Below are positions 3,401 through 34,970 of a stretch of DNA of 34,970 nucleotides, one piece after another. This stretch comes from a virus. The stretch covers positions 1 to 34,970 of IMG/VR virus record IMGVR_UViG_3300031525_000153; one strand, given 5' to 3'. Every line of letters begins with the position of its first letter. Positions within the stretch are counted from its first letter, which is position 1. The notes below the pieces were generated by a model that saw only the letters and a list, made by a program, of their open reading frames with translations, ran no database searches and had not been told where the DNA came from. Both the position numbers and the translations under genes were made by a program.

Positions 3401-3401
3401 A

Positions 3402-8169: not shown

Positions 8170-8443
8170 ATCACAGAATCAGGGCGATGAGGGCGAAGAC
8201 ATTCATTCCGTAGTCGCGCAGCATGGTCCTGCCAACGAAGTCCACATCATGCACTCCGGTGGGCAGCACACCATGCACTCAACGCATGGAGCGCACAAGC
8301 ACAAATCCAGCCACGGTTCAGCCCACGAAGCACATCAGGCGGGTATGACTGCGGCGAACGCTGAACAGCCCGAGGGTGACGAGGAAGGCGTAACGTCCGA
8401 TCAGAACACGCCGGAACAGGCCCCGGCAATCCCAGGTTACTAA
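8078..8443 (+). CDS. His-rich protein of unknown function, 121 aa
   Basis: GTG start with an excellent AAGGAGG (8065-8071) 6 nt upstream. The N-terminus is Pro/Gln-rich. The middle (about residues 43-90) is unusually rich in histidine: HSVVAQHGPANEVHIMHS, then HTMHSTHGAHKHK and SSHGSAHEAHQAG. The pattern HGPA-x-EV and HGSA-x-EAH resembles, from memory, other small phage proteins encoded close to portal genes, but no function is known. Metal binding is an obvious possibility. The C-terminus is acidic. It overlaps the previous gene by 92 nt. Confidence 0.65.
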   Translation: MTMLFGKKPMPKPQSGHPPQQMEPKQNDQPESQNQGDEGEDIHSVVAQHGPANEVHIMHSGGQHTMHSTHGAHKHKSSHGSAHEAHQAGMTAANAEQPEGDEEGVTSDQNTPEQAPAIPGY

Positions 8444-8493
8444 CGGAGGACTCCCTAAGTTCTCTGACGTAGCAAAGGCGCGTCATTCAAAGA

Positions 8494-12113: not shown

Positions 12114-12267
12114 TATAAGATTTTGCAAGCGTTGCGGGAAGTTTCAGGGACGGGGCTTAACTGATTACTTCCTAGGCTTAGGCCGAGACGGCACCGCAAC
12201 GCTATCGCCCCGAAAATTGGATCGTCAAAGCTTCGACAACCTAGCGTTGTCGCTGAATCAGGCGTAG
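12091..12267 (+). CDS. Possible small CxxC protein, 58 aa
   Basis: A frame opening at GTG 12091, inside the last codons of the scaffold gene, runs 58 codons through the start of the intergenic gap. Its product contains FCKRCGKFQGRGLTDYFLG and ends RQSFDNLALSLNQA. The C-x-x-C knuckle followed by a basic helix resembles the start of small zinc-binding phage proteins, but only one Cys pair is present. The same bases form two strong inverted repeats, so the openness of the frame might be incidental. Ribosome-binding site is weak (AAAAGGG). Confidence 0.3.
   Translation: MRFRGRSDIRFCKRCGKFQGRGLTDYFLGLGRDGTATLSPRKLDRQSFDNLALSLNQA
12128..12203 (+). repeat. 10-bp perfect inverted repeat
   Basis: AGCGTTGCGG at 12128-12137 is the exact reverse complement of CCGCAACGCT at 12194-12203. 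The 56-nt interval contains shorter self-complementary patches (CCTAGG, GGCCGAGACGG), so the RNA could fold into a branched structure. Confidence 0.6.
12234..12252 (+). repeat. Hairpin with 7-bp stem
   Basis: CGACAAC (12234-12240) and GTTGTCG (12246-12252) pair perfectly around a 5-nt CTAGC loop. No run of T follows, so it is not an ordinary intrinsic terminator. Confidence 0.6.
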
Positions 12268-12396
12268 TTATCAGTACAGCCGTGCGGAGTGAAAACCGCA
12301 ACGGTGCCAACGCCAAAAACGCTGCACATCCTTTGTGCTGGACCTACAGGCGGGTCGAAAAAGGAGGCGACTTGAGCTAATTGTGCAGGTGTGTAC

Positions 12397-13725: not shown

Positions 13726-13732
13726 CTTAACC

Positions 13733-13760
13733 AGGGGCGTGGGTTTCGGCTCACGCCTCT
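13733..13760 (+). other. Intergenic hairpin between capsid and GroES-like genes
   Basis: AGGGGCGTG (13733-13741) pairs with CACGCCTCT (13752-13760) over 9 bp, with a single G-U pair, around a 10-nt loop. It starts 8 nt after the capsid stop and ends 7 nt before the AGGAG of the next gene. There is no T-run, so partial termination, RNase processing or 3'-end protection of the capsid message are more likely than full termination. Confidence 0.6.
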
Positions 13761-13775
13761 CACTCAGGAGAGAAG

Positions 13776-14132
13776 ATGCTAAGACCAAGAAACGATCTGG
13801 TTCTTATCAGGCGCATCAAGGAAGACGTTGATTCACCAATCATCCGTCCTGATTCTTCAGTCACTCCTTCAAATAAGGGAGAAGTGATTGCAGTAGGACG
13901 CGGAGAAGTCATCGACGGGAAACTGATTCCCATTGATCTTGAACCCGGAACCATCGTTATCTTCTCGAAGTATTCAGAGATGACGGTAGAAACAACGGAA
14001 GAAGGAGATTTTCTTCTGGTACGCAGCATGGAGATTTACGGAGAAGAGGATGAATTACCGTATCCCAGGCCCCGAGCGGAGAAAGTGCCCATCGGAGTTT
14101 CAGCGCAGAATCACAAGGGCAGGCGGAATTAA
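13776..14132 (+). CDS. GroES-like co-chaperonin
   Basis: This 118-aa protein aligns by eye with Cpn10/GroES over residues 3-89: LRPRNDLVLIRRIKED (first strand), a mobile-loop-like segment VDSPIIRPDSSVTPS (18-32) with a hydrophobic tripeptide where GroES contacts GroEL, then NKGEVIAVGRGEVIDGKLIP, the PGTIVIFSKYSE strand and FLLVRSMEIYG. Phage co-chaperonins such as T4 gp31 replace host GroES to fold the capsid protein; position immediately after the capsid gene supports the same job. An extra basic C-terminal tail of about 28 residues (PYPRPRAEKVP) is not part of the fold and overlaps the next gene. Start ATG follows CAGGAGAG. Confidence 0.85.
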   Translation: MLRPRNDLVLIRRIKEDVDSPIIRPDSSVTPSNKGEVIAVGRGEVIDGKLIPIDLEPGTIVIFSKYSEMTVETTEEGDFLLVRSMEIYGEEDELPYPRPRAEKVPIGVSAQNHKGRRN

Positions 14133-14646
14133 CCGCTTCGGAAAGCCGAACTTCGATATTATCTGGGGCGAGACGGCTACAGTTCGCACCGAGGCTGGCG
14201 TGATGCTCTCCCTGTTCGGTGAGCAGTGCTGGGCGCTCAGGAAGTGGAACGACGCAGAGAGACGCTACGAAGTCGTGCAGCCGTTCCGCTGGGCAGGCAT
14301 TGTGAATGGAAAGCTGGTGCGGGAGTTCATGCCGCTTAATTCAGTAATCATCGACAAGGTGATACCGATTATCCGGCAGAGTCAGGACGTGTCTTACTGG
14401 CAGCGATGGCTCGCGCTTCGCGCGGAGCGGGAGCGTATTGAGAAGGCCAGAGAGGATCGCATCGAGGCCAATATCCGGAATGCAAGTCCGTGGGCTGGCC
14501 CGGTGTCGTTTGCAGCGCAGCGCATGAGGACTTCGCTCATCGACAAGAAGATCGAAGCGATCAAACGCAACTGGGATCGGGCCATGTATATGCAGAGGAT
14601 TTTACGCAGGGGGCATTCGGCCTTTAACAAGCCAGTGCTTAACTGA
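14050..14646 (+). CDS. Structural-module protein of unknown function, 198 aa
   Basis: ATG 14050 lies inside the GroES-like gene (83-nt overlap) with GGAG 6 nt upstream. The N-terminus is basic (MNYRIPGPERRKCPSEFQRR), the centre beta-rich (NFDIIWGETATVRTE, RWAGIVNGKLVREFMPLN), and residues 125-190 form long charged helices (RAERERIEKAREDRIEANI). I recognise no family. Location between capsid and adaptor genes suggests a head-associated or assembly protein. The overlap with GroES uses the region coding for the non-conserved tail of that protein. Confidence 0.7.
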   Translation: MNYRIPGPERRKCPSEFQRRITRAGGINRFGKPNFDIIWGETATVRTEAGVMLSLFGEQCWALRKWNDAERRYEVVQPFRWAGIVNGKLVREFMPLNSVIIDKVIPIIRQSQDVSYWQRWLALRAERERIEKAREDRIEANIRNASPWAGPVSFAAQRMRTSLIDKKIEAIKRNWDRAMYMQRILRRGHSAFNKPVLN

Positions 14647-14660
14647 ACTCAGGAGGAACC

Positions 14661-15434
14661 ATGTCAGCGAACGCAACGATCACGAAACAGTCCAGGCCGA
14701 TCAAGGCTGGGCAGGGACCAGACACCACCGATCCCGGATATCAGATGGGCGTCAAGGAAAACCAGATCAACTGGCGGTCCGACCCGAACATGGTGCGGCA
14801 GGCGGAGTACTTCATTTACGTGTTCAATGTCGGCGGGAAGAATCATCCCATCACGCATCCGCTGGTAAAGGGGAACATCCCCGCGTGCCCTCCGGGCGAA
14901 CGTTACAAGCTGGCTTTCAAGCTGCCAAACATTATGACTCAGGTTTGGGCGGATGATGCAACAGGACTTCCCCGAACCCATGCGGAATACGGTGAGCGCG
15001 TTGCCACCGACCTGATTAACCCTGCGAATCTTGGAATTGACCAGTGGGCAAATCTCGATGAATCGCAGATTATTTCCAGCGGCCAGGACATGGCGAAGTT
15101 CGGAGTATTCTGGAGTTTGTCTGAAGTTCCTTCCGATGAAGAACTCGTGAAGATTACCGAGAAGATGAAGAAGCACTACCGGGTGCTGATTGGCCGGGCA
15201 GATGAACTGGCCCGCAAAGGGAAGCTCGAAGACATCACCCAGGACATGCACATGGCGGCTGACTACTTCCAGTATGAAGCAAGCTGGCACGCGCAGGTGG
15301 AGATGCCGACCAACTGCCCGAACTGCGGAGAGAAGATTCGCAAGGGCATTGCGTATCACAAGAATTCGATGGATATGGTTTGCGTCATCGACAGGAAACG
15401 CTACGAGGCGGCAACGGGGAAGACCGCCGAATAA
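14661..15434 (+). CDS. Zinc-ribbon-containing protein of unknown function, 257 aa
   Basis: ATG follows an excellent AGGAGG (14651-14656). The first 30 residues are polar; residues 45-100 look like a beta-rich domain (AEYFIYVFNVGGKNHPI, ACPPGERYKLAFKLP), followed by helices (KITEKMKKHYRVLIGRADEL). Near the C-terminus, NCPNCGEKIRKGIAYH (about 215-230) with a later cysteine in MVCVIDRKRY resembles a zinc ribbon. This combination is unfamiliar to me. A virion or assembly role is suggested only by its position in the head module. Confidence 0.7.
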   Translation: MSANATITKQSRPIKAGQGPDTTDPGYQMGVKENQINWRSDPNMVRQAEYFIYVFNVGGKNHPITHPLVKGNIPACPPGERYKLAFKLPNIMTQVWADDATGLPRTHAEYGERVATDLINPANLGIDQWANLDESQIISSGQDMAKFGVFWSLSEVPSDEELVKITEKMKKHYRVLIGRADELARKGKLEDITQDMHMAADYFQYEASWHAQVEMPTNCPNCGEKIRKGIAYHKNSMDMVCVIDRKRYEAATGKTAE

Positions 15435-15439
15435 TCTTC

Positions 15440-15498
15440 ATCGTGGCCCGGTGACTTCTCCTGGGCTTGCCTGAGTTCAGTCGTTGCCGGGCTGCGAT
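15440..15498 (+). other. Intergenic long-stem hairpin
   Basis: ATCGTGGCCCGG (15440-15451) pairs with CCGGGCTGCGAT (15487-15498) at 10 of 12 positions, enclosing 35 nt that can fold further (GGGC/GCCT). It fills most of the 79-nt gap and ends 15 nt before the adaptor-gene ATG; the GAGGA Shine-Dalgarno (15506-15510) stays free. There is no T-run after the stem. Confidence 0.5.
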
Positions 15499-15513
15499 GA
15501 TGTTTGAGGACAA

Positions 15514-16302
15514 ATGCCGATAGTTGTCACAGGGCCGTACCCTAGCGTTGAGGAAGTGCTTCAGGACGCTCGCGCCCTCGTGAACGACACTTACGGTGGC
15601 ACTGGCCTCGTGCTGACCGATACCGCCCCGTTTACAATTCCGCTGATTAACGGGGCGATCAGGCGGCTGCGTCTTGAGTTTGCAAACAACAATATTTCCA
15701 CGGTCATCAAGGACAATGTAATTCTGTCCCCGATCCTCCCGGTGCAGAATATTGATCCTTCCGTGCAGCAGTTCATTTCATGGAGCGGGTTCTACGATGG
15801 CACGCAGATGTGGCCCGTGCCTGTCCTGCCGCCTGATCTGATCGTTCCTCTGTTTGCGTGGGAGCGGCAGACTGGGGCCGGCCTGCCATTTGTTGAGATG
15901 CAGGAACCTCAGTCAGGACTGATTTCACGGTTTCAGTATCCCAGTCTCGGACAGTGGGAATGGCGCACGGATCAGATCAACCTGATTGGCTCGACAGAAT
16001 CAAGGGACATGCGCCTTCGCTACGAGGCACAGGTTATTACCGAGATTCAGCCAGATTCTGATTTTACTGTGACCACGATAGGCAGCATCGACTCTCAGGA
16101 CGCGCTGGCGTATGAGATTGCTTACCGGTTCGCAACGGCCCGAGGCGCTGCGATTGCTCCGCAGATGAAGGCTGACCGTGACGAGTATCTGTTCCTGATG
16201 GTGAATCGGTACGTACGCAGGCAGCAGGAGATTCCTTATCTTCGTCAGCAGTTCGGGGCGACGAACAATCCGTATCCAGGCGGAAACATCAACCTGCCGT
16301 AA
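15514..16302 (+). CDS. Head-tail adaptor (connector) candidate
   Basis: The 262-aa protein begins MPIVVTGPYPSVEEVLQDAR and has a helical N-terminal region with ALVNDTYGGTG and INGAIRRLRLEF, a central beta region with WSGFYDGTQMWPVPVLPPDL, and a C-terminal helix bundle (DALAYEIAYRFATARG, MKADRDEYLFLMVNRYVRRQ). Phage adaptor proteins binding below the portal (gp4-like and gp6-like groups) have this mostly helical layout with a terminal R/K-rich helix, and this is the expected gene position before the tail genes. The assignment is by context and general pattern only. Confidence 0.6.
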   Translation: MPIVVTGPYPSVEEVLQDARALVNDTYGGTGLVLTDTAPFTIPLINGAIRRLRLEFANNNISTVIKDNVILSPILPVQNIDPSVQQFISWSGFYDGTQMWPVPVLPPDLIVPLFAWERQTGAGLPFVEMQEPQSGLISRFQYPSLGQWEWRTDQINLIGSTESRDMRLRYEAQVITEIQPDSDFTVTTIGSIDSQDALAYEIAYRFATARGAAIAPQMKADRDEYLFLMVNRYVRRQQEIPYLRQQFGATNNPYPGGNINLP

Positions 16303-22013: not shown

Positions 22014-22670
22014 GTGAAGATTTACCGCTGCCTCACTGTTGACATCCACTCAGGCGAGATTCTTTTCGAGGACTCCTATTCTTACGATGGCCCGGTGATG
22101 CTGTGTGACCGTTCGGCAGCAGGACAGGCCGGAGCCGCTGCAAATGCCGCCAAAGGAACAGCCAATACCTACGGAGGCCGCGCCACACAGGAATACGGTT
22201 CACTTCTCCCCGGACTTGAACGCGAAGCAAATACCCCGATCGGCTACACGCCCACTGAGCAGAACAACATGCTCGTGGCAGGAGAACAGGGTGCCGGGGG
22301 CGCGAATTCAGGGATCACCGGACAGGCAAATCTTACGGCTGGGCGCACACGCAATGCTTCAGGATATGGTGCGGCGCTCGATCAGGCTGCGCGACAGAAA
22401 GGCTCGCAGCTCAGTGAGAACGCCCTGAACGTATCGAATAAATCAGCGGAACTCGGCGAGCAGAAGCAGCAGGGCGCCCAGAGGGCCTTGCAGGGATTGT
22501 ACGGCACCGATACCAGCGGAATGCTCGGAGCGATGGGACTGATACCCCAAGATGTGAACGCGGAAGCCAATGCAGACAAGACGGGCTGGGTCCAGGATCT
22601 GACAAGCATAGGGAACATGCTCGCCAATGGAGCTAAGGCAGCTTCTGGGGCAGCGGGCGCAGGCGGATAA
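22014..22670 (+). CDS. Internal virion (ejection) protein candidate, 218 aa
   Basis: GTG start with AGGAG at 22004-22008 overlapping the previous stop. After a short ordered N-terminus (KIYRCLTVDIHSGEILFED) the protein is rich in Ala, Gly, Asn and Gln, with helix-forming stretches (AAGQAGAAANAAKGTANTYG, YGAALDQAARQKGSQLSENA). Such low-complexity, helix-prone proteins encoded after the tail nozzle are typical of short-tailed phages, where they leave the head with the DNA and form a channel across the cell envelope. The C-terminus (GAKAASGAAGAGG) fits this. No specific homologue recognised. Confidence 0.55.
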   Translation: MKIYRCLTVDIHSGEILFEDSYSYDGPVMLCDRSAAGQAGAAANAAKGTANTYGGRATQEYGSLLPGLEREANTPIGYTPTEQNNMLVAGEQGAGGANSGITGQANLTAGRTRNASGYGAALDQAARQKGSQLSENALNVSNKSAELGEQKQQGAQRALQGLYGTDTSGMLGAMGLIPQDVNAEANADKTGWVQDLTSIGNMLANGAKAASGAAGAGG

Positions 22671-23938
22671 TGGGACTTTCAATCAGCGATCTCGATGATT
22701 TGATGGGCTACGACCCCGTAACCCATAGCGCAAAGGGATTTCCCTCTCTGGCTGGCGCTCCTGCTGGGATGGGGCTTGATGCACCGGCACCGAATTTGCA
22801 AAGGCCGCAGGCGACCACGGCAGAGCTTCCTGGCCTCGCACAGGCGAGTGGTCGAACTCCCAAACAGGAAGGGCAGTATCAGTTCAAAGCGGGAATGCCG
22901 CAGGTTGAAGCGCCGCCGTTGACTCCCGGTTATTTCCGAGAGAAACAGGCACAGCAGGATTACGGGACCTCGCATCCCTGGGGTTCTCCCATCTCCGAGC
23001 ATCCGGGATTCGCTGGTAAAGTAGGGCACGCTCTCTCTGTTGCCGGGAATATAGCAGGTAACGTACTAGCCCCAGCCGAAACATCGCTTGTTCCTGGAAG
23101 CGATCTGAATAAGCAAAAAGAATCTCAGCGCAACCTTGCCGGAGAAGTGGCGACTGAGAAACCGGATATTGCAGAGCAGGAAGGCGAGATTAAGGAAGCG
23201 GTTGCGAGAGATAACGCCGATGCAGCACAAAGGCGCGTGGAAACTCAGCAGGCGGGAGCCGATACGCGAGCTACTGCCGGTAATGCTAAAGATGAGGACA
23301 TTGCTGATAAGGGCAATCTGACAAAGACAAAGATTTCCGGGGACGAGAACGCCACCAGGGAAGATATTGCCAATAAGGGCATCTATTCCCGTGAAAAAGT
23401 TGCTAAGCTGCACGATGATACAGAGAAGCTTATCGCTCAGGAGCGCGAGGCCGGCGCCAACGAACGCGCAGCGATAGCTCAGGACCCGAACAAGCTCACG
23501 AACACAATGAAAACGATGAAACAGCAGGCGCAGACCACGCTGCCGGAGATTGACAAGGCATTGACTGAAACTGCACAGGTCAAAGACCTGCTTGGTCCGA
23601 GTGCCGGGCGCTGGAACGATTTCATTCAGGGGAAGATTGGTATTTCCGATCCTCGCTTTGCTCACTACCGGGATGAAATCAGTTTGGTGTCTACCGCTGT
23701 GACGTTGGCACACGCTCGGGGCCGAATGAGCGGAGAACTTTACAATCACTTCCAGCAGATGTTCGATGCAGGAAAGCAGGACCCGGACAATATGGTCCAG
23801 GCGCTCGATGTGGCGAAGGAATGGCTCTCAGATTACGCGAGCATGGGTGACACGCCAGGCACTGCTGCTGGCGGCGGAACTCCTGCACCAGCTGGTGGCG
23901 TTCCGTCATTTTCGGACTGGTCTAAAGGGAAGAAATAA
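22670..23938 (+). CDS. Internal virion (ejection) protein candidate with long coiled coil, 422 aa
   Basis: The start shares its A with the previous stop (TAATG). Residues 1-125 are Pro/Gly/Gln-rich; residues 150-280 are extremely rich in Ala, Glu, Lys, Asp and Arg (EVATEKPDIAEQEGEIKEAV, DNADAAQRRVETQQAGADTR), suggesting a long, charged coiled coil. The region 285-390 looks folded (LPEIDKALTETAQVKDLLG ... GELYNHFQQMFDAGKQ) and resembles a helical domain seen in other ejection proteins. The Gly/Pro-rich tail ends SFSDWSKGKK. Position in a set of three such genes supports a DNA-delivery role. Confidence 0.55.
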   Translation: MGLSISDLDDLMGYDPVTHSAKGFPSLAGAPAGMGLDAPAPNLQRPQATTAELPGLAQASGRTPKQEGQYQFKAGMPQVEAPPLTPGYFREKQAQQDYGTSHPWGSPISEHPGFAGKVGHALSVAGNIAGNVLAPAETSLVPGSDLNKQKESQRNLAGEVATEKPDIAEQEGEIKEAVARDNADAAQRRVETQQAGADTRATAGNAKDEDIADKGNLTKTKISGDENATREDIANKGIYSREKVAKLHDDTEKLIAQEREAGANERAAIAQDPNKLTNTMKTMKQQAQTTLPEIDKALTETAQVKDLLGPSAGRWNDFIQGKIGISDPRFAHYRDEISLVSTAVTLAHARGRMSGELYNHFQQMFDAGKQDPDNMVQALDVAKEWLSDYASMGDTPGTAAGGGTPAPAGGVPSFSDWSKGKK

Positions 23939-24846
23939 TGGGAGTCGCGCAGGATCAGGACTTTCTGAACGCACCGTCTGACCAACAGCATGCTTATCTC
24001 ATGTCTGTTGATAAGGACTATGCAAAGGCTCCTCCCGACCAGCAAAAAGAGTTTCTGCGCTCGGTGAATAATCCTGACCCTGAAACAATGCTTGCGAAGT
24101 CTCAGGCGGATGCGAAGACTCAGGGAACTGCACCACTGACAGCCGCCGCTACGGAATCGGGGAAAGGTGCTGATTTACTTGCGAACATTGCCGGGCATCC
24201 CTACGCGCCAAAAAACGAGCAGGAAGCCGATCAGCAAATGAAGCAGACGACGCGAAGGATGGGCGAGGGATATTCAGGGCCACTGACTGCGGCAATTCCA
24301 GGCCCTGGCGAGGGCGGTTCGCTTCTAGCTCAGGCTGCTAAGGGAGCAGGGGCAGGCGCTGGAGTCGGGGCCTTGGAGCATGGGCTATCCGATGCATGGC
24401 GTGGAGAATTGCCAGACGTAGGTGGAACTTTGAAAGCAGCGGCAACGGGTGGACTCATGGGAGCTGTGGGTGGGCCATTGATGAATTATCCTCCGGTCAG
24501 GAATGCTTTAGAGAGCGTACCGTTCCTAAGAAAATATCTTCCGCAAGAGGAAGATGAGGTCAAGCAGGCCGTGAGAAACAGGGAAGCAAACTGGATTCCG
24601 ACAAAAATAAAAGCAGCACCACCGCAGGAAGCTCCTGCGAGAATGGGAGGTTTTAATCCTGGTTCTCCTGACGTGAATGTTATTCCCGAGCCACGTGGAG
24701 AATTTGAGGGGGAAGTTCCGAACTATATGGCTTCAGTCCCTAGAGAAGAATTAAACAGGCTCGCTCTTGCCGCGAAGCCCGGAGCTGGGAAGCAATTGCA
24801 GCAGCTTGGGAAGCCCGTGATTTATACTCCACGGGGAAGTTATTAA
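23938..24846 (+). CDS. Internal virion (ejection) protein candidate with glycine-zipper helix, 302 aa
   Basis: The start shares its A with the previous stop (TAATG). The N-terminus holds two tandem copies of a 20-residue motif, DFLNAPSDQQHAYLMSVDK and DYAKAPPDQQKEFLRSV, of the form D-[FY]-x-x-A-P-x-D-Q-Q-x-x-[YF]-L. Residues about 120-185 contain Ala/Gly-rich segments (GAGAGAGVGALEHGL, LKAAATGGLMGAVGGPLMNY) that could insert into a membrane during DNA injection. The C-terminal third is polar and Pro-rich, ending VIYTPRGSY. No enzymatic motif, in particular no transglycosylase catalytic pattern, is visible. Confidence 0.55.
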   Translation: MGVAQDQDFLNAPSDQQHAYLMSVDKDYAKAPPDQQKEFLRSVNNPDPETMLAKSQADAKTQGTAPLTAAATESGKGADLLANIAGHPYAPKNEQEADQQMKQTTRRMGEGYSGPLTAAIPGPGEGGSLLAQAAKGAGAGAGVGALEHGLSDAWRGELPDVGGTLKAAATGGLMGAVGGPLMNYPPVRNALESVPFLRKYLPQEEDEVKQAVRNREANWIPTKIKAAPPQEAPARMGGFNPGSPDVNVIPEPRGEFEGEVPNYMASVPREELNRLALAAKPGAGKQLQQLGKPVIYTPRGSY

Positions 24847-24855
24847 GGAGAGCAC

Positions 24856-25218
24856 ATGGCAACGCCACTGGTATTTCAGTCAATCCTGCTTTTCTCTGGC
24901 GATATCCCGATCACGATTGCCAACGGCAAAAGCGGCCCGGCAGACAGTTTGTATTTCACTGTTCATCCGGGTGGATCGAACGAGAAGCGCAACCTTGCGA
25001 TAACGGGCATCGGCACATTCTCTGCGGCAACCATCAACCTGCAATATTCAACGAACGGTGGAGCGACATGGAGCGCTTACAGTACGGCAGACACTGCGTT
25101 CGACCTCCATGCGGTCAATCCGGCTATATTCACCGACATTATGCCGAGCTTTCTGTATAAAATCACACTGAGTGCCCTGACAGGCGGCCCGCTGACACTC
25201 AAGGCGAGCGTGTCGTGA
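24856..25218 (+). CDS. Small beta-rich structural protein, 120 aa
   Basis: ATG with AAGGAG (24845-24850) 5 nt upstream. The product reads as a single beta-sandwich: FQSILLFSGDIPITIANGKS, NLAITGIGTFSAATINLQYS, TNGGATWSAY and SFLYKITLSALTGGPLTLKA. It has no cysteine and no signal peptide, unlike all the genes downstream. Its stop overlaps the first signal-peptide gene (GTGA). A role as a base, collar or decoration protein for the fibres is possible; no family recognised. Confidence 0.6.
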   Translation: MATPLVFQSILLFSGDIPITIANGKSGPADSLYFTVHPGGSNEKRNLAITGIGTFSAATINLQYSTNGGATWSAYSTADTAFDLHAVNPAIFTDIMPSFLYKITLSALTGGPLTLKASVS

Positions 25219-27047
25219 AGCGACTCCTTGTATTGCTGCTGTTCGCAACTCCGGTTGTCGCTCAGACCGGATATCGTGGAGTTGTACAGACCACAACCGG
25301 CCAGGCCGTGGCTGGGGCTACGATTACCGTGTGTTCGTACAGTTCCTCGAACTACAGCACGAGCGGCAATTACAACGGACCGCTTCCCTGCACCACTCCC
25401 GTTTCGATTTATGCGGACCCCGGCCTGGCGCATCCAATCTCAGTTTTATTGAGCGATGGGCAGGGAAACTTTTCTTTCTTTGCCGCTTCGGGGGCTTACA
25501 CCGTCACGATAACCGCGAGCGGAAGAATCAATCCATACGGCTTTGCCATTTCAACGCAGACGGGGCAATCCATCTATTATGCCGGGCCTTTGCCTTCATA
25601 CGATGCCGTAGCTCATGGCGCGGTCTGCAATGGCAATACGGGTAATGTCGCGACCGACTCTGCCGGGATTCTCGCGGCGATCAACGCAGCAATTGCAGCC
25701 TCGCCGGCAGGCGGAATAGTCAACATCGACAACTGCGTCTGGCTGCCACCGAATCCGCTTCCGGTAACGACTGCCTGGATTACTTTGCAGGCTCGAACGG
25801 GATTCACTATCACTGGCACAGTGCACCTGCGCGATCTATACAAACTGCTCGGCCAGCCCAATATCGGCGCTCAGTTCACGCAGTTTGGCACGAAGCCCAC
25901 AGCTCAGATCACCCCGATTCCAGCTTCCATCTCTCCTGTCGTGGAAATGGATAATGTTGCCAGCCAGGGCAACCCTCAGATAGTTCAGAACATCTCCTGC
26001 GCGACGACTTTCACAGGCACCTGTTTCCAGGCTGGTACGCCCTCTCTTGGAGTCGCTGTCGATCAATGGATTGATGATATTGCTGTCTCCAATGCGACTA
26101 CTGCTGTTCCATTCATTCAGTATGGGGGTTTTGGCCTCCGACTGCATGGAGGTTCCTATGCACCGGGGCTGGGTAGCACGAACCCAAGCATCACGCTAAC
26201 GAGCATCAGCGCATCTGATCCGGTAAGGGATGTTGATATATCAGGCTCTGACGATACTTATTTGACAATAAACCTTCAGGGCATTGAAGTTAACGCCCTA
26301 CCTGCCGCTAACGGTGCCTGCTCGACCGATTTAGTATTTGACAAGATTTTATACGAGAATGCTCAGACTTCCGGCTATCAGCACATGATTAACCTGGATT
26401 CCACATATACATGCTTCCAGGGTATCCGCATTGTCGAGCCGATAGTTTCCGATCCAGTCGGTGTCGCTGCAATTTTATCTACCGGATCAGGTGCCCAGGC
26501 GATTCTGGATGTGGAAGTCTGGCTCCCCGCCAACCCGGTAACCACCAGCGCCCCGATTTTCTCCGGCACAAAAGCAGTCAGCGGAATTATTCACATGGCG
26601 GGCACCGCGACGACAGCCAACCTCGGAACCGGAGTCAACTGGGGCGGCATTATCCTGGACGGGAGCGGAATCTTTTACGCGGGCGGCAACGATTGCGCAG
26701 CAGGAGGCTTTTGTGGAATATTCGGTGGCCTGTACGATGACGCAGACACAGCTGCGAGCTGGAACATTTACAAAAGCATCCCGAATCCAACTCTCGCAAA
26801 CCTGTCGCTGAATCAGCGGACCAGTGAAACGGGCGACCTCCTTGACTGGAAAAATTCCAGCAAGAGCATTTTGGGGCACATTGATGCGGGTGGCAACATG
26901 CTGGCCCCATCCTACCGTGCCCCGTTGACGACTCCATCCAGTTCCTCAGCAACCTGCGTTGCCGGGGTTACGGCCTGGGACGCCAATTATGTTTACGTTT
27001 GCACGGCAACGAATACATGGAAGCGCACGGCGTTAACGACATTCTGA
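25215..27047 (+). CDS. Signal-peptide-bearing tailspike/fibre-like protein, 610 aa
   Basis: GTG start within the previous stop (GTGA). Residues 1-16 are a Sec signal peptide (KR, then LLVLLLFATPVVA, cleavage before QTG). Residues 18-115 form a carboxypeptidase-regulatory-like beta domain (VVQTTTGQAVAGATITVC ... GQGNFSFFAASGAYTVTI). Then YDAVAHGAVCNGNTG with AGILAAINAAIAASPAGGIV (about 128-165) is the phage tailspike/pectate-lyase entry motif to a right-handed beta-helix. The C-terminus, CVAGVTAWDANYVYVCTATN then TWKRTALTTF, matches a common phage fibre end. I count 12 cysteines in the mature part. It is probably an exported receptor-binding or depolymerase-type fibre. Confidence 0.75.
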   Translation: MKRLLVLLLFATPVVAQTGYRGVVQTTTGQAVAGATITVCSYSSSNYSTSGNYNGPLPCTTPVSIYADPGLAHPISVLLSDGQGNFSFFAASGAYTVTITASGRINPYGFAISTQTGQSIYYAGPLPSYDAVAHGAVCNGNTGNVATDSAGILAAINAAIAASPAGGIVNIDNCVWLPPNPLPVTTAWITLQARTGFTITGTVHLRDLYKLLGQPNIGAQFTQFGTKPTAQITPIPASISPVVEMDNVASQGNPQIVQNISCATTFTGTCFQAGTPSLGVAVDQWIDDIAVSNATTAVPFIQYGGFGLRLHGGSYAPGLGSTNPSITLTSISASDPVRDVDISGSDDTYLTINLQGIEVNALPAANGACSTDLVFDKILYENAQTSGYQHMINLDSTYTCFQGIRIVEPIVSDPVGVAAILSTGSGAQAILDVEVWLPANPVTTSAPIFSGTKAVSGIIHMAGTATTANLGTGVNWGGIILDGSGIFYAGGNDCAAGGFCGIFGGLYDDADTAASWNIYKSIPNPTLANLSLNQRTSETGDLLDWKNSSKSILGHIDAGGNMLAPSYRAPLTTPSSSSATCVAGVTAWDANYVYVCTATNTWKRTALTTF

Positions 27048-27055
27048 GGATCAAC

Positions 27056-28933
27056 ATGAAAAGACTATTACTTCTCGCGTCACTGCTGTTCTTCGCTCTG
27101 CCCTGCTTCGCACAGCAGCAGCTCCCGATTGTCAACGGACAGGTCACGGTCAACCTCCAGCAGGGGTTTATTTCCTTTGCGGTGATCCTGAATGCCAACG
27201 CAACTGTGACATTCACGAATCCTAACCCTGGACAGGTAGTGACGCTGATCTTCACGCAGGATAGTTCCGGAAATCGGACGGTGAGCTGGGCAGCGAACAT
27301 CCATAACACTCCAACGATCAGTTCGACCGCAAATGCCACGACTGCCGTTAATTTCGTCTTCAACACCAATTCAAATTCATGGTCCGGTATTACAGGCGTT
27401 GGCGGTGGTGGGGCAGGTAATCCGGGAGGTTCAAGCACCCAAGTCCAGTACAACAATGGCGGTGTCTTTGGGGGTATGGCAGACCTGACTTATGTAAGTC
27501 ACACGATCACGCTGGGGGCATCCGGGATATTTGCGATTACGGCAGGCGGAACAATCACGGGCATCACTGCCGCGATGATTCCCACGCTTAACCAGAACAC
27601 AACCGGGACCTCCGGTGGACTCTCAGGTTCTCCGGCGATCACGGTAAGCTCATGTACCGGGTGTGGCAGCGGCCCCGGCACAGGAACCCAATATGAGCCT
27701 GCTTATTGGGCAACGACTTCGACACTGGGCAGCGCGAGCTTCGCCACCACGCCCAATGGCGTCCCTCAAGTTCTCGTAATGGTTCCTTCGGGAAGCGCAC
27801 TAACTGCGCCCGTGGGAGCATTGCCTGGCGTCGTGACTCGTGTGGTCGGAGGCACCACGTCAACCGATACCATCGTGAGCGTCGATTGCAGTCCTGGGCG
27901 CGTGGCTTATCAGGGATCGGTAGCCGTGGCCGTCACATTGCCAACAGCTACCACATTAGCTGTTCCGAGTTGCGTGTTCCGCCTGACGAACACGACCAGT
28001 GGTTCAGCGACGGCAGTTACCGTGACGCCGACAACGTGGACCGTAAACGGTGGAGCGACTTTGGTTATCGCTCAGGGTCGCGCCTGCACCATGTATGTTG
28101 ACCCTGCCGGGAGCGCCTGGGACGCAGACTGCGCCGACCTGCCGATAGTCGCCGGGACGAACGTAACGATTACAAGGGGGCAGTATGGCCCTACCATCGC
28201 AGCAAGCGGGAGCGGCAGCGGGACGGTAACAAGCATTGCCACGACAGCGCCACTTGGCGGAGGCACGATCACCACATCGGGGACGCTGACCTGTACGACC
28301 TGCGTTACCAGCGCGGCGTCGTTAACGAGCACAGCCCTGATGACTGGAGGAGGTTCGCAGGCATCTCAGACACCATCATCCACTTCGACGCTGGATTCCA
28401 GTGGCAATGCGAAGTTTCCTGGCAGCGTCGCCGTAGGTTCATCTCCACCGGCAGTTACTCCCGGCACAGGTGGCGTTGCGGCTGGAGGCGAGGGCACAGC
28501 GCCATCTGTCGGATTCGCAAGCGGCGTGGATGCTCTATGGGCCGATTCGACGGGGCACTGCTACCATGCCAATTTCAACAACGTTGATTTCGGTTGTGTG
28601 CAGGGCACCAAGACTATTATATCGGCAACGAATTGCTCGTCCTCTGCATCCCCTGCGGTCTGCGGATCGGCGGCGGCTGGCAGCGTAGTAATAGCAGCCT
28701 CCGCCACAACAGTCGTCGTGAATACCTCGGCGGTGACAGCCAACAGTCAGATATTCGTTTTCCCGGACGAGACGCTGGGCACAAAGTTGAGCGTGACATG
28801 CAATAGTACTCTCGCGACCGCTGCATCTGGCTTGGCAATCACGGCACGCACCGCGGGAACGAGCTTCACAATTTCGACATTAGCGACGGTTGCGGTGAAT
28901 CCCGTGTGCCTGTCATATTTGGTGACGAATTAG
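27056..28933 (+). CDS. Signal-peptide-bearing tail-fibre-like protein, 625 aa
   Basis: ATG 27056 with TGAGGA 5 nt upstream is chosen over ATG 26999, which lies inside the previous gene and would bury the signal peptide. The N-terminus MKRLLLLASLLFFALPCFAQ is a classic signal peptide (cut before QQQ). STQVQYNNGGVFGGMADLTY (about residues 126-145) is the V-Q-Y/F-N-x-G-G-x-F-G-G signature of phage and prophage tail fibres. Repetitive Gly/Thr/Ser-rich strands follow. The C-terminus has VNTSAVTANSQIFVFPDETL and ends PVCLSYLVTN, a fibre-tip pattern I recall from soil-phage proteins. About 14 cysteines occur after the signal peptide. Confidence 0.75.
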   Translation: MKRLLLLASLLFFALPCFAQQQLPIVNGQVTVNLQQGFISFAVILNANATVTFTNPNPGQVVTLIFTQDSSGNRTVSWAANIHNTPTISSTANATTAVNFVFNTNSNSWSGITGVGGGGAGNPGGSSTQVQYNNGGVFGGMADLTYVSHTITLGASGIFAITAGGTITGITAAMIPTLNQNTTGTSGGLSGSPAITVSSCTGCGSGPGTGTQYEPAYWATTSTLGSASFATTPNGVPQVLVMVPSGSALTAPVGALPGVVTRVVGGTTSTDTIVSVDCSPGRVAYQGSVAVAVTLPTATTLAVPSCVFRLTNTTSGSATAVTVTPTTWTVNGGATLVIAQGRACTMYVDPAGSAWDADCADLPIVAGTNVTITRGQYGPTIAASGSGSGTVTSIATTAPLGGGTITTSGTLTCTTCVTSAASLTSTALMTGGGSQASQTPSSTSTLDSSGNAKFPGSVAVGSSPPAVTPGTGGVAAGGEGTAPSVGFASGVDALWADSTGHCYHANFNNVDFGCVQGTKTIISATNCSSSASPAVCGSAAAGSVVIAASATTVVVNTSAVTANSQIFVFPDETLGTKLSVTCNSTLATAASGLAITARTAGTSFTISTLATVAVNPVCLSYLVTN

Positions 28934-28934
28934 G

Positions 28935-31208
28935 ATGCGAACCATTCTCCTGCTTCTGGTGAGCCTGGCGTTCTGCCTGCCTGCGAGTGCGATCTCGCTT
29001 GTTAATCACACAGGAGCGCAGTCCACCACCGGAGGTGCCATAACAACAGCCTCAGTAGATATGAGTGCCTGCACGACTCACTGCATGGAAGCAGTATGCT
29101 GGGCCGGATTTCAGGCAGGGAATACAATTTCAGATTCACAATCGAATACGTGGCACCGCGTTGCCGTTCAGAATAATTCCGGGCAGACTCAATCCGAGTT
29201 ATGGATTTCATTCACCCCAACCGTAAGCTCAACGCAAACATTCACAGCATCCGGGGGTGCATCGTCACTATCCGCGATGGCTTTCAATGGAGTCGCCTCC
29301 GGGCCAGATCAACAGAATGGTGCAGTTGGTGGATCATCTCCGCTCAGTGCGGGCAGCGTTACGCCGACGAACGCAGGCGAATTGGTACTTTCCTGCTTCT
29401 CGGGATATGCACCGACAAGTCCTGCAATCGCTGGTCCATTGGTGGGGCTTGATCTATTTTCATGGATTTCCACCGCAGAGGGTCTTGGGTCTGGCTACCA
29501 GATTCAGACAACAGCAACGGCGGAGAATCCATCATGGAGTTGGACTGGTGGAGCGATTTTTGGTGCCGCTATCGTCGCGACGTTTTATTCGACCACGGCC
29601 CCAGCGACTCTTACCGTGACGACCACGACATTGCCCGAGGGATTCAACGGCTCGCCTTATACCACTACAATCCAATCAAATGGCGGAGTGAGTCCATTTA
29701 CCTGGTCACAAACAGCAGGGACGTTGCCATCCGGCCTGAATTTTAGCTCCGGGGGCGTTTTGAGTGGCACCCCCACAGCGGCCGTGTTAAACGCGCCACA
29801 AACTTTCAAGGTCACTGACTCTACGAGTGCCACGGCGTCTTCATCGGGATTGACTTTGACTGTCGCGGCCTCGGCGTTGCAAATAACCACGACCACATGC
29901 CCAGCGGGAACGCAAGGCTCATCCTATGCAGGTTGCACCCTCGTGGCGACAGGCGGTACTTCCCCCTACACTTTTTCGATGGATACCTCCGTGAATTATC
30001 CGACACTCCCCGAAGGTATCGCGGTGAACGGAAGTACCGGAGTGCTCAGTAGTTCCCAGATTGGCGGACAGGGAAATTACACGGCAGGTCTGATCGTCAC
30101 AGACTCAAAAGGCGCGACGGCTGAGAATGCAATCCTGTTTTCGATCACAGGAAACAACGGATTCATGTCCACGATCTTCCCCTCAAATTCAATATTCCAT
30201 CATCGCGTGGATGCTGCATCAACCGGACTGCCGGTAGATACTTCACCGGCCGCGCCGATAAATAGTGCCTATACCTCCCATGCGATTGAGCCTTTGTTTG
30301 GAGCTTCGGAGAATGCACCTTATCCTGGTGGCATCCCGGCGTTCTACGTTCCCTGCAATCAGGCGGACGTTAGCATCACCACGACGGTATATCAGTCCTA
30401 TTTCACGAGCGCCCCGATACCAAACAACGCTCCGGTCGAAGGGACAGCCAACAGCACACCACAAGGCCCGGACAATCACGTCCTGATCTATCAGCAAGCT
30501 GGATGCGGTAATCCGCCAATGCTTTGGGAGATGTGGCAGGGAATTTATGAAGGTGGCCCATGGACGGATTCATCGAATGCCTTGTGGACAGATGTTTCTG
30601 GTAATGCTCTTACGCCTCAAGGAATGGGCACGACCGACGCGGCAGGATTGCCAGTGGCCCCTCTCTTGTTGAATGCTGATGAAGTTATTGGAACTGGAAG
30701 TTCATCGGCTCCAAATGGCGTGGTCATGCACCCTACACGTTTTACCATACCACATGCAATTGAGTATTGGGTGTGGCCTTCTACTGCGACATCTGGGGTG
30801 GGAAATTGTAGTGGCACCCCAACATACACACTAATTTCTCAGTCTTCGCCGCCCGCAGGCCCCTGTACCTGGTCTGGGCCGATGGGTGAGATTTATCGCC
30901 TTAAGGCCAGTGTGGGCACTCCCTCATGTGCTGCCACAAGTCCACAGGCTGCAATTATCATTACTGGATTCAGGAATTATGGAATCATCCTGGCTGACAA
31001 CGGCGGCGCTGGATATGTGATTGGCACCCCCGATCCGCGCTGGAACGATGCCGACCTCGCTTGCCTGGAACAGCTTACGCTGGGAAATTTCGAGCCAGTG
31101 AACGTTAGTTCGCTGATTTATGCAGGGACAGATAGCGGTGAGACGCCTCCCGTTACGCCGCCTCCACCAGTAGCAGGTACGCCGACAATGTTCGCGGGGG
31201 GAAGATGA
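28935..31208 (+). CDS. Secreted putative-Ig (He_PIG) protein, 757 aa
   Basis: The N-terminal MRTILLLLVSLAFCLPASA is a Sec signal peptide. Residues 25-200 form a beta-sandwich with NTISDSQSNTWHRVAVQN and ASSLSAMAFNGVASG. Two putative-Ig (He_PIG, cadherin-like) modules follow at about 226-312 (LPEGFNGSPYTTTIQSNGG, GTLPSGLNFSSGGVLSGTPT) and 313-405. Residues 415-725 are a domain with IEPLFGASENAPYPGGIPAF, DNHVLIYQQAGC, LWEMWQGIYEG, RLKASVG and NYGIILADNGGAGYVIGTPD then PRWND; I recall this pattern from secreted proteins of Acidobacteria and other soil bacteria, without a function. A Pro-rich tail ends the protein. Twelve mature cysteines. Confidence 0.7.
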   Translation: MRTILLLLVSLAFCLPASAISLVNHTGAQSTTGGAITTASVDMSACTTHCMEAVCWAGFQAGNTISDSQSNTWHRVAVQNNSGQTQSELWISFTPTVSSTQTFTASGGASSLSAMAFNGVASGPDQQNGAVGGSSPLSAGSVTPTNAGELVLSCFSGYAPTSPAIAGPLVGLDLFSWISTAEGLGSGYQIQTTATAENPSWSWTGGAIFGAAIVATFYSTTAPATLTVTTTTLPEGFNGSPYTTTIQSNGGVSPFTWSQTAGTLPSGLNFSSGGVLSGTPTAAVLNAPQTFKVTDSTSATASSSGLTLTVAASALQITTTTCPAGTQGSSYAGCTLVATGGTSPYTFSMDTSVNYPTLPEGIAVNGSTGVLSSSQIGGQGNYTAGLIVTDSKGATAENAILFSITGNNGFMSTIFPSNSIFHHRVDAASTGLPVDTSPAAPINSAYTSHAIEPLFGASENAPYPGGIPAFYVPCNQADVSITTTVYQSYFTSAPIPNNAPVEGTANSTPQGPDNHVLIYQQAGCGNPPMLWEMWQGIYEGGPWTDSSNALWTDVSGNALTPQGMGTTDAAGLPVAPLLLNADEVIGTGSSSAPNGVVMHPTRFTIPHAIEYWVWPSTATSGVGNCSGTPTYTLISQSSPPAGPCTWSGPMGEIYRLKASVGTPSCAATSPQAAIIITGFRNYGIILADNGGAGYVIGTPDPRWNDADLACLEQLTLGNFEPVNVSSLIYAGTDSGETPPVTPPPPVAGTPTMFAGGR

Positions 31209-32440
31209 AGAAATATCTGCTATTGCTTCCATTGCTTCTGTGCTTCATATGCTCCGCGAAAGCGACCACCTGCGGATATGCCACGGTGGGGAGCCGCACA
31301 GGAGGGGCGACTAATAACCAGGTGGCTGCCGCGCAATGTGTTCCTTCGGTAAACAGCACGGTAAGCGATTGTCAGATATATGCGATTAGTGGAATTGGAA
31401 GCGGGAACTGCGGAATCTTTGACTCTGACGGGGCAGGGGGTCTACCACAAACCTTAATATGCGCTGGCACCCCAACCACGCTTACCGCTGGCTGGAACAC
31501 ATTTTCTTTAACTGGCTGTGGAACACTAACTGCTGGTCACACTTATTGGCTCGCCGTAAATTTAACGACGGATACGTTTGCCTTTGACCTTTCTGCTCTT
31601 ATGGCGCAGCAACAAGGGGAAACCTGCTGCACGATGGTCAGTTATACCTCTCCTGGTTACGTTGGTCTTTCTCTGACGGCTTCTGAGTACATAGATATAA
31701 CCGCTGCCGTTTCCGCAAGCGGCACCACCATAGCAGGCCCGGTGACAATCGCAGGCCCGGTGACGATCCAGCAGGCGGCGGGAAGCGGCGGCGGGACCGT
31801 CACTGCGATCTGTCACAACAACAGTGGCGGATTCTATTCGTCTGCGTCCTGTACGCTCGGCTCGAATGTCCCGGCTGGCGACAGGATTATGCTCACCATT
31901 TTCTTTAATGGGCAGAACTGTGGCACTACCCCGAACAACGTAGCGTCTATCGCAGATAGCGGAAGTAATACTTATGCTGAGGACACGAACGACAGCGCCG
32001 GGGCCGGGACCTGCATTTACAGTGCGCAGGTCGCAACCCAGGTAAATTCCGGCGGGACTGTAACTCTGAATTGCGCTGGGGGCAATTGTACGGGGAGCTT
32101 CTGGGCATGGGACCTGCATCCCTCTAAAGTCTCAGGAGGCATCGAGCAGGCAAACGCTCTGCAACAAACTTTCAGCACATCTGTATCCATACCTGCTGCC
32201 GGGGCGGTCACGAGCACCGACCTCTGTATAGCGATGGTGCAGAGCGGCACAAGTTCAACCAATCAAAATAACTGGACCGGTGGCTTCACGACTCTGTTCG
32301 TCAATCAGGCGATGAACTCCGGGAACTGGGGGGCTGTCGGCTGGATACAGGCTACCAGCGGCACGACGCCTGACGCGACGATGACCCTGAATGCGGGAGA
32401 CAACTCGGGATCGGCTATTGATTGTTCCAAGGAGTTTTGA
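31205..32440 (+). CDS. Secreted cysteine-rich beta-sandwich protein, 411 aa
   Basis: ATG overlaps the previous stop (ATGA). MKKYLLLLPLLLCFICSAKA is a signal peptide cut before TTCGY. Two beta domains are visible: residues 20-165, with a jelly-roll-like end (TLTAGHTYWLAVNLTTDTFA), and residues 195-405, with RIMLTIFFNGQNCG, VASIADSGSNTYAEDTNDS, VNSGGTVTLNCAGGNC and SFWAWDLHPSK, similar in layout to the N-terminal domain of the preceding protein. A short collagen-like tandem (AGPVTIAGPVTI) joins them. About 16 cysteines in 391 mature residues, including CC and CxxxxC pairs, argue for disulfide formation outside the cytoplasm. Function unknown; adhesin or fibre tip are possibilities. Confidence 0.7.
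   Translation: MKKYLLLLPLLLCFICSAKATTCGYATVGSRTGGATNNQVAAAQCVPSVNSTVSDCQIYAISGIGSGNCGIFDSDGAGGLPQTLICAGTPTTLTAGWNTFSLTGCGTLTAGHTYWLAVNLTTDTFAFDLSALMAQQQGETCCTMVSYTSPGYVGLSLTASEYIDITAAVSASGTTIAGPVTIAGPVTIQQAAGSGGGTVTAICHNNSGGFYSSASCTLGSNVPAGDRIMLTIFFNGQNCGTTPNNVASIADSGSNTYAEDTNDSAGAGTCIYSAQVATQVNSGGTVTLNCAGGNCTGSFWAWDLHPSKVSGGIEQANALQQTFSTSVSIPAAGAVTSTDLCIAMVQSGTSSTNQNNWTGGFTTLFVNQAMNSGNWGAVGWIQATSGTTPDATMTLNAGDNSGSAIDCSKEF
31733..31768 (+). repeat. 18-bp tandem duplication
   Basis: Two adjacent 18-bp units, GCAGGCCCGGTGACAATC and GCAGGCCCGGTGACGATC, differ at one base and encode the hinge AGPVTIAGPVTI between the two domains of the secreted protein. This is a slippage-prone linker, not a CRISPR array. 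Confidence 0.85.
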
Positions 32441-34970
32441 TGCGACGCTTATTCCGGGTATTACTTCTGTTGCTGTGTGCTGCACTGCCTGCATCCGCGC
32501 AGTACTATTCTTCCGGCTTTGGTGGCGAGATCGGCACCGGATACGTTGCCAATCCTGCCGCTGGTTCCTATACCGTAATCGCAACTCCCGGCACCGCCCA
32601 AACCTTTCCAGCAATCACTGTTTGTGAAGCTCATAACGTAGCGGCGGTAGTCCCGCTGGCTCCGCAGGGTTATCAACCGGCTGGGTCCAGCAGCAACTCC
32701 GTGACGAGTTCGAATTTTAGTCTTTCAGCCGGGGGTATTGTTCTGGTTGGTGCGACAGCCAACGCAGGTGGATTCACTGTTGGGGGTACCGTTGGCGGAA
32801 ATACCGTCACAGTGGTGCCGTCAACGAACGGGCAGAACATTAACGCCGCCTATGTCACTTTCGGTTCAGCACAAAGCGGCATCAACTCTGCCATGACCAA
32901 CGGCAACGGCGGATTATTGATTTCGTCGGTCGCCCTTCTTTCAAATGGTTCAACCCCCGTTGTGGACAGTTGTTCAGCAGGTCTACAGCAAAACGGATCG
33001 CCAATAAATGTACAAACACCAATCACAGTAACTGGCGGAAGCGGTCATGTATTGATCGCATTCGCGCGTAACGCTGCCGGGTCACAAATTCCCATTACTT
33101 TCACGGATGCTAGTTCGGCGAATGGCGGCCAGGGGAATCTTTGGCTCACGCTGGCACCGAATATTTACTACGTTTCGCAGGCCACGGGGTCTGATTCGAA
33201 CACTTCGACGCAGGCAAGGTCAACCAGTACGCCGTGGAAAACGCTGCCGGGCATGGCAAATACAGGACTCAGTTACTCACCCGTGGCGGGGGACATTTTC
33301 ATTCTCAAGGGGTGTGACGACTGGCCGAACGCCAGCTTTCCGTTCACATGGACGGCGACTGGAACAGCCGCAGCCCATATCAAGATATCAGTCGATCAAT
33401 CATGGTACAACACATCCGCTTGTGCCAGCGCGTGGAACCGCCCGAAGTTCGATGCAGGCGGAACCGCAATTTCCCCTCCGATGTGTACGTCTGCCACACC
33501 GAACAGCAACCTCGACATAATGATGTACTTTACCGGAGGTAATTATTACACCGACTTTAGCTGGATTGAAGAAGTTGGGTATGACTGGACACAGGGAGAA
33601 AATTCCCCGTGCTACGGACTTCAGGAACTGAATAAAGGCATAGGAGCGCACTATCTTAACTTCTCGAATTTCTACGTCCACGACTGGACGTGTACAAGTT
33701 GCGCGGGAGACGCGCAGTTCTGGACGGATCAGAGCGATGGTACCGTAAATATTGACCATTGGGTGATCGACAATACCGACGGCGATCAGGTTGCAGGCGG
33801 CAACATCGACGCCCCGGCATCTTATTCGATCTGGAAATTGGTGGCGAACGCCCTGCGGGTGACGGCTCCGGGAGTTTACGCCAACAACAATATTTCGGAT
33901 GTCGTGAGCGGCGCACCCGGAGAACATTCCAATGCGTTTGAATCCCTGGCCAGTGGCCAGACTCTCTATCTTTACAACAACTGGATACACGACTGTGCGA
34001 ACGCGGGAATTACTGTCACCATCGGAAATCCGGGAGAGACGGATTACCTCTGGAACAATGTCATCGGATACAATTGCCCCAACGGTGGCGACCCGGTTGG
34101 CGGGCCGCAGTCTACTCCCGGCGTCAGTGTTTACCTTTGGAATAACACGCTCATTGCACCCGGCGGTGCGTGCTTTGGCAGTTACGGAACGAATCAGTGG
34201 ACTGGCACTATCTCGCTCCTGAATAACTTCTGCCTGACAACAGTCACGCCAAATGGCGTCTCTCAGTCGCAACTGATGAGCGCCACGACTTTTACGGGAT
34301 ACACAACTCTGGTTGCCACAGGCAATGAGGTTGAAACAGCAACGGCAGGGGCCTCTCAGGGCTATTCCAATTCCAGCACCTATTCCTTTGGGCCGACCTC
34401 AAGGAATTGCAACGGCATCCCGACCAATTGCCCTATCGGGGCCGGGGGTAATCTGAACGCTTCTGCCACAGGGCAATTTGCTGCTCTCGCGCTGGATACC
34501 ACTCTGGCCTGCACGGAGCAAACGATCAACACCGTGGTAGAAAGTGTCTGTCCGCAACGCCCGGCGATTCAGCGGCCTCAGATTGGTGTTACTCCACAGG
34601 CATGGGATTCCGGCGCTTACCAGCTTGCTCCCGCACTGACTGTTGCAGCAGGAACATCACGCGGCACCATTTATCCCGACATCTACGGATTCATGGGGGC
34701 CGGAAATGGACTCGACAACACTTTCGCCACAAGCATCAGTGTGCCGCTGGTTCGCATGGGTGGCGATCCGTGGAGCCGCTACAACGGAGCAAGCGACAGC
34801 GTTTGCTATGTCTCGTACCAGACGATCTGGCAGTGCGGCGTGCAGTTCACCGGAAATGGGACGGCCTATAACTCTGTGGATTCTGTGATTACCAATTATC
34901 GGTCGGATTTCTCGGGCGTTCACATCCTGATGACCATTCCGACAATCCCCTACGTGAGCTATCAATCGCT
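32440..34970 (+). CDS. Secreted beta-helix / GH44-like glycosidase fusion (3' partial)
   Basis: ATG shares its A with the previous TGA (TGATG); GGAG at 32431-32434 is 5 nt upstream. The frame is open for 843 codons to the window edge. MRRLFRVLLLLLCAALPASA is a signal peptide cut before QYY. Residues 25-235 are beta-sandwich (TVCEAHNVAAVVPLAPQGY, HVLIAFARNAAG). From about 241, IYYVSQATGSDSNTSTQARS then PWKTLPGMA starts a right-handed beta-helix, with repeated N-N-x-I rungs (YANNNISDV, YLYNNWIHD, YLWNNTLIAP) to about 690. From 740, GTIYPDIYGFMGAG, PLVRMGGDPWSRYN and HILMTIPTIPYVSY match the beginning of GH44-like TIM-barrel glycosidases; the catalytic glutamates would lie beyond the edge. It probably degrades a surface or environmental polysaccharide. 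Confidence 0.75.
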   Translation, partial: MRRLFRVLLLLLCAALPASAQYYSSGFGGEIGTGYVANPAAGSYTVIATPGTAQTFPAITVCEAHNVAAVVPLAPQGYQPAGSSSNSVTSSNFSLSAGGIVLVGATANAGGFTVGGTVGGNTVTVVPSTNGQNINAAYVTFGSAQSGINSAMTNGNGGLLISSVALLSNGSTPVVDSCSAGLQQNGSPINVQTPITVTGGSGHVLIAFARNAAGSQIPITFTDASSANGGQGNLWLTLAPNIYYVSQATGSDSNTSTQARSTSTPWKTLPGMANTGLSYSPVAGDIFILKGCDDWPNASFPFTWTATGTAAAHIKISVDQSWYNTSACASAWNRPKFDAGGTAISPPMCTSATPNSNLDIMMYFTGGNYYTDFSWIEEVGYDWTQGENSPCYGLQELNKGIGAHYLNFSNFYVHDWTCTSCAGDAQFWTDQSDGTVNIDHWVIDNTDGDQVAGGNIDAPASYSIWKLVANALRVTAPGVYANNNISDVVSGAPGEHSNAFESLASGQTLYLYNNWIHDCANAGITVTIGNPGETDYLWNNVIGYNCPNGGDPVGGPQSTPGVSVYLWNNTLIAPGGACFGSYGTNQWTGTISLLNNFCLTTVTPNGVSQSQLMSATTFTGYTTLVATGNEVETATAGASQGYSNSSTYSFGPTSRNCNGIPTNCPIGAGGNLNASATGQFAALALDTTLACTEQTINTVVESVCPQRPAIQRPQIGVTPQAWDSGAYQLAPALTVAAGTSRGTIYPDIYGFMGAGNGLDNTFATSISVPLVRMGGDPWSRYNGASDSVCYVSYQTIWQCGVQFTGNGTAYNSVDSVITNYRSDFSGVHILMTIPTIPYVSYQS

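Follow-up and report, generated by a model that had tools for sequence, protein, structure and literature searches.

Five consecutive genes at the right edge of a linear 34,970-base viral contig (IMG/VR record IMGVR_UViG_3300031525_000153, positions 1 to 34,970; hereafter the window) each encode an N-terminal signal peptide (SP) of Sec/signal-peptidase-I type. We named these genes S1 to S5. Their SP scores ranged from 3.6 to 5.7, while none of the 26 genes upstream carried an SP (top score 0.73), so that the initial annotation, which had placed SPs on all five genes and on none before them, was borne out. The scores come from our own heuristic (charged n-region, hydrophobic core and the −3/−1 rule) and not from SignalP, and the gene calls were mechanical. 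To judge from these N-termini, the proteins of the cassette are very probably exported. The genes and their parts are as follows, with signal peptides as called by the heuristic.

25215 to 27047, plus strand: S1, 610 amino acids (aa); SP score 3.6, CarboxypepD_reg-like N-domain, tailspike-type YDAVAHGAV region, phage tail C-terminal tip
25215 to 25262, plus strand: S1 signal peptide, MKRLLVLLLFATPVVA
26922 to 27044, plus strand: S1 C-terminal tip (AWDANYVYVCTATNTWKR), matching phrog_17312 (tail protein, 3.5e-8) at residues 571-610
27056 to 28933, plus strand: S2, 625 aa; signal peptide and VQYNNGGVFGG fibre motif
27056 to 27112, plus strand: S2 signal peptide, MKRLLLLASLLFFALPCFA
28935 to 31208, plus strand: S3, 757 aa; SP score 5.4, He_PIG domains (1.7e-7), bacterial-type C-terminal domain
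28935 to 28991, plus strand: S3 signal peptide, MRTILLLLVSLAFCLPASA
30174 to 31115, plus strand: S3 C-terminal domain (residues 414-727), related to SP-bearing bacterial proteins
31205 to 32440, plus strand: S4, 411 aa; SP score 5.5, 18 Cys, no family match
31205 to 31264, plus strand: S4 signal peptide, MKKYLLLLPLLLCFICSAKA
32440 to 34970, plus strand: S5, truncated where the contig ends, at least 843 aa; SP score 5.7, no family match
32440 to 32499, plus strand: S5 signal peptide, MRRLFRVLLLLLCAALPASA

The N-termini with predicted cleavage read MKRLLVLLLFATPVVA^Q, MKRLLLLASLLFFALPCFA^Q, MRTILLLLVSLAFCLPASA^I, MKKYLLLLPLLLCFICSAKA^T and MRRLFRVLLLLLCAALPASA^Q. Two starts were corrected. The mechanical open reading frame (ORF) of S2 begins too early, at 26999, and its likely start is the ATG at 27056 with GAGGA ahead; S5 starts at the ATG at 32440 with AAGGAG ahead and runs off the contig. 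As background, 62 other phage contigs gave 6 SP-positive genes among 347 long ORFs, no two of them adjacent, and shuffled N-termini scored positive in 26 of 6200 cases. Five SP genes in succession are therefore not chance. The segments could instead stay uncleaved and anchor the N-terminus in a membrane, or hold the proteins to the virion as hydrophobic plugs, as a hydrophobic core by itself is no proof of cleavage. We consider this very unlikely, because the segments are short, have a typical −3/−1 site that is often followed by Q, and show no lipobox in any of the window's five SPs.

The initial annotation had regarded all five products as fibre- or spike-like, with clear phage fibre signatures in two. 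This holds for S1 and S2, which carry fibre modules. S3 is bacterial in its C-terminal half, S4 and S5 match no family, and profile matches revealed no fibre module in S3 to S5. The S1 tip is common to 18 other phage contigs; the YDAVAHGAV motif was recognised by eye, and the CarboxypepD_reg match is weak (E 0.0026, below the cut-off). The S1 N-domain recurs in SP genes of the metagenomic phage G004 and of Tunturi 1 and 2, described below. The VQYNNGGVFGG motif of S2 is common to 44 phage contigs, and residues 385-515 of S2 (131 residues) have 56% identity to an SP gene of another contig, L094. GenBank phage searches with S1, S2, S4, S5 and the S1 N-domain returned no match.

As in ordinary tailspikes and fibres of Caudoviricetes, S1 has the tip and S2 the VQYNNG motif, and the genes stand after the virion genes. 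Tail fibres are normally assembled in the cytoplasm and need no export signal, whereas S1 to S5 all have one. None of the 62 contigs that share the S1 tip or the S2 motif has a convincing SP on the matched gene, and the fibre and tailspike genes of the Bacteroides phages B40-8 and crAss001 (first 50 kb) also lack SPs. The sole value above threshold among the 62 (3.62, contig L068) belongs to a hydrophilic segment of the wrong kind for an SP and was discarded. SP-less homologues in related phages had been named beforehand as evidence against the observation. The result was divided: fibres sharing only a motif lack the signal, while the cassettes of related and acidobacterial phages, given below, possess it.

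The block follows glycosyltransferase genes, the terminase, portal-like and scaffold-like genes and other virion-type genes, in that order. The genes needed here are:

6257 to 7825, plus strand: terminase large subunit (phrog_979, 7.6e-28), tying the window to G004
8494 to 10926, plus strand: portal-like gene, role from position and a G004 match (2.2e-39)
10923 to 12113, plus strand: scaffold-like gene, role from position and a G004 match (3.3e-16)
24856 to 25218, plus strand: 120-aa signal-less, Cys-free gene, translationally coupled to S1

The genes had been described as coupled or nearly so and directly after the virion genes, and the junctions agree with this: they measure −4, +8, +1, −4 and −1 nt, the first being that with the gene at 24856-25218. 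From 16314 onward every gene overlaps its predecessor or begins no more than 9 nt after it, and the block sits in the late region, coupled to virion genes at 22014-25218. The overlap and abutment of the block genes and the upstream virion gene speak against a moron with its own transcription unit. An assembly or gene-calling artefact might be suspected, as the block is covered by one contig only: near-identical contigs reach just the left and middle of the window, up to about 19,307, and we found neither a second contig over the block nor a continuation past the right edge. Such an artefact is extremely unlikely given the overlapping genes, the uniform base composition across the block and the like layout in complete genomes of cultured phages. 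A chimeric join was rejected on the same grounds of composition and coupling.

Following the He_PIG match we reached the Tunturi phages, which infect soil Acidobacteriota and in which the layout recurs. Tunturi 1, 2 and 4 are cultivated Tunturiibacter phages, Tunturi 2 having Tunturiibacter psychrotolerans X5P2 as its host, and their SP genes were seen in complete genomes. By the heuristic, SPs head ORF12, 13, 14, 16 and 17 of Tunturi 2, and the same genes of Tunturi 1. Like the window, these two podoviruses (PP887698, PP885685; PMC11924767) have a run of large, Cys-rich SP genes adjoining tail genes (ORF12-17), and their ORF12 has the S1 N-domain, but their virion genes show no detectable relation to those of the window. 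The main text of the Tunturi paper mentions neither signal peptides nor mass spectrometry (PMC11924767).

In the siphovirus Tunturi 4 (PP885687), ORF111, 113 and 114 carry SPs and lie in the fibre/spike genes; the SP proteins are annotated as tail fibre, tail protein and virion structural protein. This cassette differs in standing just before the terminase and in including one signal-less gene (ORF112). The fibres of Tunturi 3 and 5 have no SP. For the window phage, an acidobacterial host is hinted at by the Tunturi phages alone. The GenBank start of Tunturi 4 ORF111 (L081:32434) omits an upstream in-frame ATG at 32077, and starting there gives an SP nearly identical to that of ORF113; the deposited ORF111 of PP885687 is probably too short.

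G004 (L082; IMG/VR 3300028746_000026) is a distant relative of the window phage. It matches the window in terminase (4e-17), portal (2e-39) and scaffold (3e-16), all E-values for a small local database, and has them in the same order. Its SP cassette shares both the tip and the signal-plus-N-domain of S1, whereas its remaining cassette genes have no sequence homology to S2 to S5. At L082:1-792 lies a 5'-cut gene in which an SGNH-hydrolase-like DGIHP motif (seen by eye; no Pfam match) is joined to an S1-type C-terminal tip.

We then used as query the WYIRPDG family, common to Tunturi 2 and 4, so that this search started from SP-bearing proteins. It gave six more phages (G004, G005, L092, L094, L096 and L097). 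All eight members, the Tunturi ones included, carry an SP, which is a property of one family found with an SP-bearing query. The neighbouring SP genes are more independent evidence. Beside the WYIRPDG gene, G004, G005 and L094 each have three more SP genes, L096 has two, L097 has two to four, of which two are weak, and L092 has none; one of those in L094 has a TTG start behind AAAGGAGG. Runs of SP genes lie among the fibre/spike genes of Tunturi 1, 2 and 4 and of five of the six metagenomic phages, L092 having a single SP gene. The recurrence set comprises about nine phage lineages, eight of which share one family. This family has a choice-of-anchor Q match. In samples of 198 and 151 genomes its search gave mostly weak C-terminal matches and one strong, SP-bearing match on a short contig. 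L096 is an AT-rich contig (38% GC) with a like cassette at 7276-15689 and several more SP genes downstream, from which the SP-cassette pattern may be wider than one host phylum.

The signals persist where the proteins diverge. SPs are kept in homologues at 33-39% identity, and those of the WYIRPDG family all appear intact at a mean pairwise identity of 36%; two of its members have roughly 490 and 610 residues separating the motif from the signal. A signal kept while downstream domains are shuffled is as expected if export is selected. The mature SP proteins (n = 32) have a median Cys content of 2.14%, versus 0.49% for virion-side proteins (n = 33) that lack a signal in these phages; the two sets differ in ancestry besides presumed location. 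The Mann-Whitney p of 1.6e-9 is optimistic, as related sequences are not independent. The enrichment fits disulphide folding outside the cytoplasm, which is probable. Since the cassettes contain bacterial-type domains, the signals could be leftovers of captured or fused host secreted-protein genes, with no present role. This is quite improbable: they are intact in all five genes and in nearly all genes of the other cassettes, the WYIRPDG family has retained them in every member despite divergence and domain shuffling, and Cys content tracks the signal.

The bacterial side is clearest in S3. Its C-domain matches a Solirubrobacteraceae genome, a genome labelled Thermoflexus, and plasmids of Streptomyces and Kitasatospora. 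When 149 genomes from the same phylum as the Solirubrobacteraceae match were sampled, 28 had the domain. Where the N-terminus of the cellular homologue is readable, an SP is present (three of three distinct genes). SP-bearing bacterial homologues were found for this domain and not for S1, S2, S4 or S5. A suspected resemblance of the C-terminal part of S5 to GH44 was dropped when Pfam and PDB searches with that piece gave no credible match.

The reading we favour, tentatively and at somewhat less than even confidence, is a cassette of phage late genes whose products would be exported through the host Sec pathway, cleaved by signal peptidase I and then folded, with disulphide bonds forming, outside the cytoplasm. 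S1 and S2 would be receptor-binding or polysaccharide-acting spikes, and S3, perhaps with S4 and S5, exoprotein-like partners. The exported proteins would meet virions at lysis, and those of the S1/S2 type would dock on the tail. Docking is suggested by the fibre modules on S1 and S2 (signal-less elsewhere), the position of the locus and its coupling to virion genes. Fibres can join finished particles after lysis, as in vitro work on T4 and P22 established, so docking needs no new chemistry.

The proteins might instead be exported and never join a virion. As free exoproteins they would break down or bind polysaccharide at the surface, remove debris, or hide receptors from competing phages. This is a serious possibility. 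The S3 C-domain and the WYIRPDG family, with its choice-of-anchor Q match, are of bacterial exoprotein type, each phage has three to five genes, many for one fibre, and signal-less fibre-like genes adjoin the Tunturi 4 and G005 cassettes. Free action accords poorly with the modules of S1 and S2, which are typical of virion fibres, and with the coupling to virion genes. A tailed phage must have some protein that binds its receptor, and we recognise no large fibre without a signal in the window fragment, so we place docking, itself a little short of an even chance, narrowly ahead of free action.

Several points weigh against docking or against the reading as a whole. The SP calls are heuristic, and presence in virions is a prediction from the genes. 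AlphaFold2 models of mature S1 (single sequence) and of the S3 C-domain (three sequences) reached a predicted local distance difference test score of 36 and 33, and were left unused. The signal-less genes beside or in the Tunturi 4 and G005 cassettes are possible receptor binders. Tunturi 3 infects the same host strain as a cassette-bearing Tunturi phage, yet its fibres are signal-less. The window is also a fragment, and other fibres may lie past its edge.

Known exported phage proteins of lysis and exclusion (SAR endolysins, spanins and Cor/Llp-type lipoproteins) are targeted to Sec or the membrane like S1 to S5, but are small, unlike the runs of 400-1400-residue genes at the fibre locus. To our knowledge no SP cassette of this kind has been described earlier, and we know of no tail fibres built outside the cell interior. 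By title and abstract, full-text searches of an open-access library gave no report of exported tail fibres in tailed phages; most subscription papers fall outside that scope. It is conceivable, though we would not put it at even odds, that a class of tailed phages, cultivated acidobacterial ones included, makes receptor-binding spikes that are Sec-exported, disulphide-bonded in the periplasm and fitted to the virion only at lysis. If the proteins join virions, they would be an exception, in several phage lineages, to the cytoplasmic completion of tailed-phage fibres, and spikes stabilised by disulphides could exist. Should they remain free, phages of soil bacteria would release sets of large spike-like exoproteins during infection, with a bearing on biofilms, phage-phage competition and soil carbon. 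Cultures exist of Tunturi 1, 2 and 4 as well as of their hosts, so the question can already be tested in either case.

Three further observations concern the rest of the window. A phage-encoded GroES-like co-chaperonin (13776-14132; phrog_3188, 5.1e-10) lies immediately 3' of the probable major capsid gene. Right before the terminase, at 1366-5949, stand a glycosyltransferase gene (phrog_28745, 6e-47) and more glycosyltransferase-like genes, which possibly serve surface-polysaccharide modification. Across 6-12.6 kb the window shares 99.98-100% identity with the contigs L020-L024, which come from four other samples; this suggests one very recent population.
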